A DNA stretch of 64,000 nucleotides, taken from positions 186,001 to 250,000 of the forward strand of contig CAHJWI010000001.1 of NCBI GenBank assembly GCA_903642225.1. Direction: 5' to 3'. A program made the translations under genes and the position numbers. Each line of letters begins with the position of its first letter. The stretch's first letter is position 1. Positions 5,361 through 8,805 of this stretch are shown here, piece after piece. The DNA is from Acidobacteriaceae bacterium (lineage in GTDB: Bacteria > Acidobacteriota > Terriglobia > Terriglobales > Acidobacteriaceae). Below the pieces are notes generated by a model. That model was not told the DNA's origin. It worked only from the letters and a program-made list of their open reading frames with translations, and did no database searches.

Positions 5361-5479
5361 GTCATTTCGACCGGAGCAGGACGGTTCTTTGTCCTGCGCG
5401 GCGGAGGAACCTGCTTTCCTCTTGCCACTTCAATAGCTGTCTCTTCGACCGGAGCAGCCAGAAGGCGGCTCTAGCCGCC
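5361..5479. repeat. Acidobacterial intergenic repeat, two partial copies
   Basis: The core TTCGACCGGAGCAG occurs at about 5366 and again at about 5443. The first copy is followed by the hairpin AGGAC/GTCCT and GGAGGAACCTGC. The second is followed by the short hairpin GGCGGCT-CT-AGCCGCC (5464-5479), which overlaps the 3' end of the chaperone gene on the minus strand. Repeats with this core recur between genes in Terriglobia genomes (from memory). Here they fill most of the space between convergent genes. Confidence 0.6.
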
Positions 5480-6790
5480 TCCGAGATCCTGCCCCGCCAG
5501 CATCGCCAATCCATACGCCACGGACGTGAACGCCTCACCAGTCACGACATTCCTCTCGCCAAACCTGCTGGAGAAGATGCGCCGCACCGCCGGCACCAGC
5601 GACGTGCCGCCCGTCAGAAACACCCGGTCGACAGACGACCCGTTCACTCCGGCTTCCCGCAGCACAGCCTCCACCGCCGCCTCCATACGCTGCAGATCCG
5701 GCTCAATCCAACTCTCAAATTCCGCGCGGCGCACCGTCTCCTGCAGCTTGAATGCATCGCCGTCAAAACGGAATACGGCTTCGCTCGCCGACGACAGATC
5801 CACCTTCAGCCGCTGCACAGCGCGGTGCAGGTGGTAGCCCAGGTCGTTCTCCACCAGGCTGCGCAGTGCCTTGATCTTCTCCGGTTCCAGCGCGCGCATC
5901 TCGCTCGTGCGTAACAGCTCTCGCACGCCGTGCGTCCGCAAAAACGACAGCGTGTGCCACCGCTCCAGCCGCGCATAGACCCACGCCGGCAACGCCGGCA
6001 GCGTCTTGTCCAGCGACCGCGCCATGCTTTCCGACCCCAGCGCCGGCGATACCAGCCGCCGCACAATACGCGCGTCGAAGGCGTCCCCGGCCAGGCCGAC
6101 ACCGGTGCTTGCAAGCACCCGCTGCTTGCCGTTGACTACGCGCAACAGCGCAAAGTCCGTCGTGCCACCGCCAAAGTCACCGATCAGCACAAGCTGCTCG
6201 CCGACAGCATCCCGCGCGTACGCCGCCGCCGCTGCCACAGGCTCCAGCGCAAACTCCACGTCGGTAAACCCTGCCTCAACCAGCGCGCCGCGCAGGCGCT
6301 CCACGGCAAAGTCGTTGTCCGTCTCGGTATCGGCCCCCACAAAAGTCACCGGCCTGCCCACCACCGCCCGCGTCACATCAAAACCGAACTGCGCACTCGC
6401 CGCACGCCGCAGGTCCTTCAGCATCCGGCTCACGAGGTCCTCAAACCTGTATTGACGCCCAAAGATCTCCGTGCCGGTCAGGTCGCGCGCAGACAGGTAA
6501 CTCTTCAGGCTCTGCACCAGCCGGCCCTGCACGGCGTCGTCCATCTGGTCGGTCTGCAGGTACTGCGCAATCGCCTCCGCGCCCGTCCACACGCTCACTT
6601 TTGCACTGGCTACCTTTCCACCCTTTTGCAGGTACAGCATTGATCGCGACGAGGGGCCAGCCGCACCTCCATGACCAAAGCTCACCAGTTCCACGGCGCC
6701 ATCGCGCAGCAATCCTATCGAGCTGTTCGTCGTTCCGAAGTCGATCCCAATCCAGGGTGTTGCATTTGTCGCTACGCTCACCTCTCCCAC
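5471..6790 (-). CDS. Hsp70-family chaperone-like ATPase (YegD type)
   Basis: This protein of about 439 residues has the Hsp70 nucleotide-binding fold: phosphate-1 motif 'IGIDFGTTNSSIGLL', phosphate-2 motif 'IGDFGGGTTDFALLR', and adenosine motif 'VFLTGGTSLVPAVRRIF' near the end. It stops there, so it lacks the substrate-binding and lid domains of DnaK, as in YegD-type proteins. ATPase activity is likely; client and partner proteins are unknown. GTG starts at 6790 or 6781 place the phosphate-1 motif near the N-terminus, while an upstream GTG at 6841 would add an unlikely 17-residue leader. Confidence 0.85.
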   Translation of the reverse strand: MGEVSVATNATPWIGIDFGTTNSSIGLLRDGAVELVSFGHGGAAGPSSRSMLYLQKGGKVASAKVSVWTGAEAIAQYLQTDQMDDAVQGRLVQSLKSYLSARDLTGTEIFGRQYRFEDLVSRMLKDLRRAASAQFGFDVTRAVVGRPVTFVGADTETDNDFAVERLRGALVEAGFTDVEFALEPVAAAAAYARDAVGEQLVLIGDFGGGTTDFALLRVVNGKQRVLASTGVGLAGDAFDARIVRRLVSPALGSESMARSLDKTLPALPAWVYARLERWHTLSFLRTHGVRELLRTSEMRALEPEKIKALRSLVENDLGYHLHRAVQRLKVDLSSASEAVFRFDGDAFKLQETVRRAEFESWIEPDLQRMEAAVEAVLREAGVNGSSVDRVFLTGGTSLVPAVRRIFSSRFGERNVVTGEAFTSVAYGLAMLAGQDLGGG

Positions 6791-6854
6791 TCTAAGTGGT
6801 TGGTCGCGTCGCGTCGCGTGGCTCAAAAGCTGCTTCCACACCTCGCATTACGGC

Positions 6855-6883
6855 TTGACACACCGGTGGAGCCGGGCTACTCT
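6855..6883 (+). promoter_or_regulatory. candidate sigma70 promoter reading toward trmFO
   Basis: A perfect -35 box TTGACA (6855-6860) is followed after exactly 17 bases by TACTCT (6878-6883), a three-of-six match to TATAAT that includes the conserved TA and final T. It lies between the divergent chaperone gene and trmFO and would give a 5' leader of about 450 bases. Confidence 0.45.
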
Positions 6884-7235
6884 CTGCCTATGCTTTTCGC
6901 AGCGCAGTATTGTTGTTGCTCCCGATAAGACCCTTTCCGGTCGAGCGACACTGCGTGCATCCTCAAACCATCAGGCACACACGAAAGATTCCGTAGGAGC
7001 ACTTTGCTCTTTCGAACTCCCGTATCGCGCTCGGCTTCCCTTTCGCTCTTTCCACTGAAAGGTCGGCTTCATGCAAAAGGCATCGTTTCTCACCCGTCTC
7101 CGTTTTTCGTATACCTACGCACTGGTGGCTCAACTTGCTCGCGGCCTCCGCAGGCGTCCGCAGCAGCAACCTGCTGCAGCTTACGCAAAAGCCCACCACG
7201 CCTGAGTGCAAAAGCCCTGCCCGACTTTTAGAAGA

Positions 7236-7340
7236 GAGCCCTCTCCGCCCCACGCGTTTACGCAATGGCGGATACTTAGAGGTAGACCAACCGCCACGGC
7301 GCAAGTGCATGTTGCACGGCACCGGCGGTCGAGAGGGCTC
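7236..7340 (+). promoter_or_regulatory. candidate RNA structure masking the trmFO ribosome-binding site
   Basis: GAGCCCTCTC (7236-7245) is exactly complementary to GAGAGGGCTC (7331-7340), which contains the GAGAGGG Shine-Dalgarno-like sequence four bases before the trmFO ATG. Inside this closing stem lie GCGT-TT-ACGC (7254-7263), a stem ACCGCC (7290-7295) with GGCGGT (7324-7329), and an apical GTGCA-TGT-TGCAC (7305-7317). Alternatively CGCC (7246-7249) can pair with GGCG (7324-7327) and lengthen the closing stem. The layout is a junction with two or three arms. I recognise no known riboswitch class. Confidence 0.45.
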
Positions 7341-7344
7341 CTTC

Positions 7345-8805
7345 ATGAAATCCATCCACGTTGTCGGCGGCGGCCTCGCCGGTCCTGAGGCTGCACTGCA
7401 GGCAGCCCGGGCAGGCTGCAAGGTCACCCTCTTTGAAATGCGCCCGCACCGCTCCACAGAGGCGCACCAGACGGCAGACTTCGCCGAACTCGTCTGCTCC
7501 AACTCGCTCAAGAGCGAAAGTGAAAACACCGCACCCTGGCTCCTCAAGCAGGAGATGCGTGCCGCTGGCTGCATCCTTCTCGAAGAAGCCGATGCCTGTG
7601 CCGTCCCGGCCGGCCACGCTCTGGCCGTCGACCGCGTGGAGTTCTCCCGTCGCGTCGCTGCACGTCTCGAAGCCGACCCGGACATCACCATCGTCCGCGA
7701 AGAAGTGACCAAGCTCCACGAGCACAGTGACGACCACCTCACCATCCTCGCCAGCGGCCCCCTCACCAGCCCAGCGCTCACCACGGAGCTCCAGCGCCTC
7801 ACCGGTACCGACCACCTCAGCTTCTACGACAGCATCGCTCCCGTCGTCGACAGCACCACCATCGACATGGACCGCGTCTACTTCGCCGCGCGCTGGGACA
7901 AGGGCACCGCCGACTACATCAACTGCCCCTTCACCCGCGAAGAGTACGACGTGTTCTACGACGCCCTGCGCGCCGCCCACGAGGTCGAAGCCAAAGAGTG
8001 GGAACGCCTCGACTACTTCGAAGGCTGCCTACCTCTCGAAGAACTCGCACGCCGCGGGCGCGACACCCTGCGCTTCGGCTGCATGAAGCCGGTCGGCCTC
8101 CGCAACCCCAGAACCGGCCAGACGCCTCATGCCGTCGTCCAGCTACGGCAGGAAAACCTGCGTGCCGACAGCTACAACCTGGTCGGCTTCCAGAACCACC
8201 TCAAGTTCGGCGACCAGAAAACCGTTCTTCGCCTCATCCCTGGCCTGGAACACGCTGAGTTTCTGCGGTTTGGACAAATACACCGCAACACCTACATCCA
8301 CTCCCCGTCTCTTCTTACTGAAACGCTGCAACTTAAGGAGCACCCGCAAATCTTCATCGCGGGCCAGCTCTCAGGCGTCGAGGGCTACACTGAGTCCATC
8401 GCCGCCGGCATGCTCGCGGGCCGTTACGCCGCAGCTATCGCTCACGGCACCCCGCCCGAGGCCGCACCCCGCCCAAGCGCCCACGGCTCGCTCATCCACT
8501 ACATCACGCACGCGGACAAAAAGCGCTTTCAACCTGCCAACATCACCTTCGACCTGCTGCCGCCGCTTGAAGAAGATCTCCGCAAAAACATCCGTGACAA
8601 GAAAGAGCGCCACCGCCTGCAGTGCGAGCGTGGCCTGACTGCGTGGAGCGAATGGCTTCGCGGCGGCACACCCACCTCCTCACGGAACTCCAGCGCGTCC
8701 TGGCCACTGCTATTTCGTAATCCTACGGGGAAAGCTGCGAACCCGCCTCTCCTGCACAGATCACTTCGAGAGGCAGTTCATTCGGCAGCCAAGGGTCAGC
8801 AGTAG
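7345..8805 (+). CDS. trmFO: tRNA uracil-54 C5-methyltransferase, methylenetetrahydrofolate- and FAD-dependent
   Basis: TrmFO makes ribothymidine at position 54 of tRNA, taking the carbon from 5,10-methylene-THF and electrons from FADH2. The 486-residue protein begins with the FAD-binding 'VVGGGLAGPEAA' and contains 'FAELVCSNSLKS' (with a catalytic-type Cys), 'LRFGCMKPVGL', and the C-terminal FAD segment 'GQLSGVEGYTESIAAGMLAG'. It is slightly longer than the usual 430-470 residues because of a C-terminal tail after the 'TPPLEQ'-like region. ATG 7345 is chosen by the family N-terminus and the GAGAGGG upstream. Confidence 0.95.
   Translation: MKSIHVVGGGLAGPEAALQAARAGCKVTLFEMRPHRSTEAHQTADFAELVCSNSLKSESENTAPWLLKQEMRAAGCILLEEADACAVPAGHALAVDRVEFSRRVAARLEADPDITIVREEVTKLHEHSDDHLTILASGPLTSPALTTELQRLTGTDHLSFYDSIAPVVDSTTIDMDRVYFAARWDKGTADYINCPFTREEYDVFYDALRAAHEVEAKEWERLDYFEGCLPLEELARRGRDTLRFGCMKPVGLRNPRTGQTPHAVVQLRQENLRADSYNLVGFQNHLKFGDQKTVLRLIPGLEHAEFLRFGQIHRNTYIHSPSLLTETLQLKEHPQIFIAGQLSGVEGYTESIAAGMLAGRYAAAIAHGTPPEAAPRPSAHGSLIHYITHADKKRFQPANITFDLLPPLEEDLRKNIRDKKERHRLQCERGLTAWSEWLRGGTPTSSRNSSASWPLLFRNPTGKAANPPLLHRSLREAVHSAAKGQQ

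Follow-up and report, generated by a model that had tools for sequence, protein, structure and literature searches.

The trmFO leader of an Acidobacteriaceae genome appears to consist of a transplanted cysteine-responsive cassette followed by an RNA fold specific to that genome, and we consider this explanation, taken as a whole, likely. The leader lies in a stretch of 64,000 nucleotides of DNA (the window). Sequence comparison brings out five elements in it, namely a promoter, a poly-cysteine upstream open reading frame (uORF), a covarying hairpin, membership in a leader family, and a small ORF shared with relatives. The conserved cassette is located about 300 bases upstream of the fold. The features, in window coordinates, are:

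6855 to 6883, plus strand: putative promoter, TTGACA (6855-6860), a 17-nt spacer and TACTCT (6878-6883), 6 nt before the uORF ATG; its columns are invariant in 6 leaders.
6890 to 6928, plus strand: leaderless-type uORF of 12 codons, MLFAAQYCCCSR and a stop; its Cys-Cys-Cys-Ser core is DNA-identical in 6 aligned leaders.
6915 to 6949, plus strand: conserved hairpin, Cys/Ser codons (6915-6924) with CGG..GAGCGAC (6938-6940, 6943-6949), from covariation and folding.
7028 to 7036, plus strand: segment 3, CGCTCGGCT, a possible alternative partner of segment 2 (GGTCGAGCG, 6939-6947); suggestive only.
7057 to 7062, plus strand: GAAAGG, the Shine-Dalgarno sequence (SD) serving the second small ORF; CCTTTC (7039-7044) is its pairing partner.
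7071 to 7205, plus strand: second small ORF, 44 aa, MQKASFLTRLRFSYTYALVAQLARGLRRRPQQQPAAAYAKAHHA and a stop; credible relatives in the congeners G001 and G011 only.
7206 to 7344, plus strand: genome-specific DNA between cassette and trmFO; 7220-7348 lacks a match in relatives and the gene order differs in G001.
7236 to 7340, plus strand: predicted multibranched RNA fold with its outer stem over the trmFO SD, from the stem, folding z-score and accessibility; its covariance model, R3, matches nowhere else in 100 sources.
7345 to 8805, plus strand: trmFO, above cut-off for the equivalog models NF003739 and TIGR00137.

A sequence-only reading of this DNA had drawn attention to the fold, proposing that it hides the trmFO ribosome-binding site (RBS). 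The perfect 10-bp stem it described is present, GAGCCCTCTC (7236-7245) pairing with GAGAGGGCTC (7331-7340) across 85 nt, and the trmFO SD GAGAGGG (7331-7337) lies within the 3' arm, 7 nt 5' of the ATG at 7345. The two mutually exclusive pairings it gave for GGCGG (7267-7271), with CGCC or ACCGCC, are also there (CCGCC at 7245-7249 and ACCGCC at 7290-7295). Folding of 7225-7360 yielded a minimum free energy of -58.3 kcal/mol (z -5.35), equalled by none of 200 shuffles, and 600 randomly drawn 136-nt segments from the window all stayed above z -4 (lowest z -3.40). In ensemble folding, the trmFO SD has a mean unpaired probability of 0.09, or 0.34 with the 5' arm blocked. Occlusion of the RBS in the source genome is thermodynamically well supported by these predictions, and the fold may lower trmFO translation.

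What such a fold might sense is a separate matter. The same reading suggested folate- or flavin-sensing control, or tRNA-level feedback, so that 7236-7345 would be a riboswitch or tRNA-like element hiding the RBS; the very stable fold over the SD and the alternative pairings of GGCGG are compatible with this, but comparison with other sequences is not. TrmFO was matched in 80 of 81 genomes (partial and MnmG-like matches included), and the leader DNA (7220-7348) gave only short chance matches in these 80 relatives. The second half of the 500-base leader gave two short matches in congeners (about 7125-7182; G016 and G017), both in unrelated sequence. Model R3 of the window fold was run against the window and 99 other loci, nearly all of them trmFO, and recovered only the window itself, while a search of the leader DNA in plasmids returned no match. 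Rfam gave no match for the fold at gathering or relaxed thresholds, save one chance lncRNA match on the opposite strand at the relaxed threshold, in agreement with the earlier remark that no known class is matched; a tRNA gene search found none. The stem is absent from close relatives, an outcome that the reading had itself set beforehand as counting against its proposal.

The trmFO upstream sequences of 17 congeners were also read. A GACAAT or GAAAAT box lies 6-7 nt 5' of the GTG start in 8 of them, and a box of the same type before the trmFO GTG at locus L017 raises the count to 9 of 17. Given the position of this box, trmFO looks leaderless in these nine congeners; in several others it abuts or overlaps an upstream GNAT gene. 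The GACAAT-type box is absent before trmFO in the source genome. The relatives searched offer neither homologous sequence nor homologous structure upstream of trmFO, and nine congeners apparently have no leader at all, so that a folate or flavin riboswitch, or a tRNA-like feedback element, is very improbable. By sequence comparison, the fold is private to the source genome among those searched, and the best explanation is that 7236-7340 is not an evolved, conserved sensor. Of the hidden RBS, the stable predicted fold over the SD stands in the source genome and the conserved sensor falls.

Gene order was compared around trmFO. In the window, orf3937 and GNAT are followed by a minus-strand DnaK-like gene, the cassette and trmFO, whereas G001, the nearest congener, has orf3937, GNAT, about 2 kb and then trmFO, with the poly-Cys cassette elsewhere; the end of the ~2-kb stretch reads, by eye, as an aldo/keto-reductase-like frame. 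Since orf3937 and GNAT are near trmFO in both genomes, trmFO has kept its wider neighbours and the stretch just before it differs. Judged from these comparisons, 7206-7344 is a junction between cassette and trmFO, the trmFO start lying 139 nt after the stop of the small ORF. The fold that covers the RBS probably represents junction DNA specific to this lineage. A related account, compatible with our explanation and in our view somewhat probable, is that chance junction DNA lowers trmFO translation constitutively with no sensing at all. It agrees with a fold unique to the source genome at a synteny break, with the buried SD, and with the frequency of 10-bp perfect inverted repeats in this GC-rich window (15 distinct axes vs 9.6 ± 3.8 in shuffles); the z near -5, however, is an outlier in the window, so some selection within the lineage is possible.

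Further observations concern the genes themselves. The DnaK-like gene (5471-6841, minus strand) has PRK11678 as its best NCBIfam model, below cut-off, and is absent from the matching G001 stretch. The TrmFO frame encodes 486 aa, of which the last 46 or so form a C-terminal extension (window 8665-8805), relatives matching only to about residue 440. A TrmFO extended N-terminally through the fold, in the frame open from TTG 7135, was considered and dropped, as the start in TrmFO relatives is near the position of ATG 7345.

The conserved cassette was recognized by DNA search, in which window positions 6905-6963 matched two congeners elsewhere in the genome (E 1e-4 and 3e-3); at both loci a short ORF ending CCCSR precedes TonB-receptor-like genes. 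G001 has the whole cassette, with promoter, uORF MQSFAHLCCCSR, hairpin and small ORF. Six leaders align from the -35 box to the hairpin, with invariant TTGAC, T-A-N3-T, ATG, TGTTGTTGCTCC and GG/GAGCG columns. The distance from -10 box to uORF ATG is 6-9 nt (6 in the window), as leaderless transcripts would have, and from this spacing the transcript would start at the uORF ATG, 6890. The same promoter layout is found in further inspected family matches. The promoter proposed earlier at 6855 fell below the threshold of a consensus promoter scanner, but TTGAC, the -10 T/A/T positions and the ATG do not vary across the six leaders. The window uORF carries the Cys run CCCSR, and its Cys codons form one arm of the covarying hairpin, which is lengthened in the window by pairing of 6899-6908 with 6950-6958. 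The source genome has a second poly-Cys leader, MRPTLFTCCCGSSQVCPVELSGCNVVDCR (L267; G000:C33:31142-31259), before a TonB-receptor-like gene.

A loose poly-Cys plus GAGC pattern run over 398 Acidobacteriaceae genomes was too noisy, and a covariance model was used for this reason, yet the pattern gave two further members. The model R1, comprising promoter, uORF and hairpin, has matches in 67 of the 398 genomes at E<=0.05. Cys-run uORFs occur in nearly all inspected matches, the weakest matches having been inspected only in part. The covariance model is frame-blind, so conservation of frame is not built into it; nevertheless, of the 51 inspected matches outside the training set, 50 have the ATG and the Cys run separated by a multiple of 3 (lengths 18-33), the exception, L229, apparently having a GTG start. 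Overall, a distance of 21 is commonest (37 of 57 matches), and nearly all others are 18, 24, 27, 30 or 33. The hairpin shows 28 two-sided changes vs 6.8 ± 2.4 in shuffles (0 of 500) in an alignment that had been fitted to the hairpin structure, and 89.5% of its cells are paired vs at most 46.5% in slid controls, again with the alignment fitted to the model structure.

With a refined model, 31 of the 329 genomes in a class-wide sample were matched at E<=0.001, all of them Acidobacteriaceae. Two weak matches, L261 and L262, come from another family of the same order and lie before similar AhpC-type proteins, assigned by Pfam for L262 only, and one of these AhpC-type genes is preceded by a run of seven Cys codons. 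Rfam matched no family in the poly-Cys leader loci tested. The leaderless-type uORFs before the two AhpC/TSA-like genes are MSTLIRLLCCCCCCCSPSRRCD (L262; G050:C24) and MSLAHLRRMCCCPAMQRRRCG (L261; G052:C51). Some poly-Cys leaders also occur as opposite-strand pairs a few hundred bases apart, as if for divergent genes (G003:C1:959200/959461 and G008:C1:1622465/1622707); further opposite-strand pairs are found at G002:C1:895158/895597 and G005:C1:1259639/1259744.

The genes downstream of these leaders were assigned with Pfam or NCBIfam on representatives, and the remaining members were sorted into groups by how alike their translations looked. Four groups, CDO_I plus rhodanese (cysteine dioxygenase), cysteine synthase, carbonic anhydrase (Pro_CA) and AhpC-TSA/thioredoxin-like proteins, have evident or likely roles in cysteine or thiol metabolism, and the poly-Cys leaders before such genes probably sense cysteine supply. 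The remaining groups comprise TonB-type receptors (CarboxypepD_reg plus OMP beta-barrel), CHRD, DUF6152, MarR and, second in line, LanC-like proteins. Many family matches precede TonB-type receptors, CHRD, LanC-like or DUF6152 genes, for which no connection with cysteine is proven, and this counts against our explanation. A cysteine or sulfur gene follows the cassette in part of the family; in the window copy, the small ORF and trmFO follow, and we know of no sulfur role for TrmFO. Two loci (L224 and L236) share the order poly-Cys uORF, CHRD-like gene, LanC-like gene (LanC assignment from L224). At L221, L230 and L231, poly-Cys uORFs precede a conserved secreted-looking protein with the pattern VEWVYR.+YG..DEW...FKKYQ.AIL.RQKQLGY, for which the L221 representative had no Pfam or NCBIfam match.

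A family-wide search for the second small ORF gave credible copies only in G001, G011 and the source genome (G000), following the poly-Cys uORF each time in G001 and G011. Over codons 2-15, the three genomes differ mostly at the third position (8-11 vs 0-3 differences), which supports translation of the small ORF. The unpaired probability of its SD is 0.00 in the free RNA and goes up to 0.03 once the uORF is blocked. An alternative pairing of segments 2 and 3 is suggestive only: the three genomes retain the predicted duplex (-16.1 kcal/mol in the window, -18.6 in G001 and -17.9 in G011), a C-G pair being exchanged for U-A, and its p value is 0.09 in the window and at most 0.05 at 4 of 30 loci.

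By analogy with mycobacteria, a mechanism can be proposed in which scarcity of Cys-tRNA would stall the ribosome on the uORF Cys codons and prevent the hairpin at 6915-6949. The freed 3' arm would re-pair, possibly GGTCGAGCG with 7028-7036, and translation of the downstream ORF would rise. Lacking the leaderless-type promoter of about half its congeners, trmFO would now be transcribed from the 6855 promoter, with the fold at 7236-7340 dampening its translation. When the stalled ribosome was modelled by blocking the uORF in ensemble folding, there was no clear unmasking of either SD and the trmFO SD was unchanged, so the downstream step is one we infer. Translational control is the likelier mode, as no terminator-like site was found in the leader.

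Cysteine control of trmFO is plausible but unproven. The cassette might instead control only its own small ORF, with trmFO merely downstream and expressed independently; we regard this as possible while leaning away from it. In G001, the first sizeable gene beyond the small ORF of the cassette is convergent, on the other strand, and in the window trmFO has an SD of its own, albeit buried; a separate promoter that escaped recognition could also serve trmFO, which would count against our explanation. On the other side, the scanner found no promoter-like or terminator-like site in 6700-7420, weak evidence on promoters because it also misses the one at 6855, and the GACAAT-type box of the congeners is missing before trmFO in the source genome.

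Attenuators of the trp/his type carry control codons within a leader ORF. The Acidobacteriaceae cassette resembles them in this respect and in its possible alternative pairing; it differs in its leaderless-type start and, in the window, in having no terminator-like site (6700-7420). With folate and FMN riboswitches, the only point in common is the earlier functional guess, there being no Rfam match in sequence or structure.

The closest parallel is in mycobacteria, where cysteine-responsive attenuation by leaderless poly-Cys short ORFs has been reported (Canestrari et al. 2020, doi 10.1111/mmi.14498, according to PMC9031893 and PMC13236596) and Cys-rich uORFs were first noted in PMC4633059. 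As far as these citing descriptions go, the two systems share a short uORF with a run of consecutive Cys codons; for the Acidobacteriaceae uORFs a leaderless start is predicted, and sulfur or cysteine genes follow in part of the family, as they do in mycobacteria. The attenuation reported for mycobacteria is here proposed for Acidobacteriaceae leaders. The comparison is one of descriptions, across different phyla: in Acidobacteriaceae the conserved hairpin contains the Cys codons, the gene set (cysteine dioxygenase-rhodanese, TonB-type receptors, CHRD and thioredoxin-like proteins) is partly unlike that described for mycobacteria, and in the source genome it is a small ORF and trmFO that follow the cassette. 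From the sequences, the poly-Cys leaderless-type uORF with its hairpin is the conserved content of the leader and a variant of the kind known from mycobacteria. More tentatively, with slightly less than even confidence, we suggest a family-wide Acidobacteriaceae regulon of leaderless poly-Cys uORFs and Cys-codon hairpins, independent of the mycobacterial one, that would control outer-membrane receptors and thiol metabolism, and of which one copy moved in the source genome, placing a tRNA methyltransferase under cysteine control via the second small ORF.

A striking private fold can draw attention from a conserved element just upstream. The open-access literature searched contained no report of such leaders from Acidobacteriota, and in the literature found, attenuation by cysteine codons of leaderless uORFs is described only in mycobacteria. 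If true, its occurrence in a second phylum, in tens of copies and together with a covarying hairpin, would suggest a wider origin or spread of the principle, and the poly-Cys leaders would provide a sequence-based handle on the sensing of sulfur supply in Acidobacteriota.
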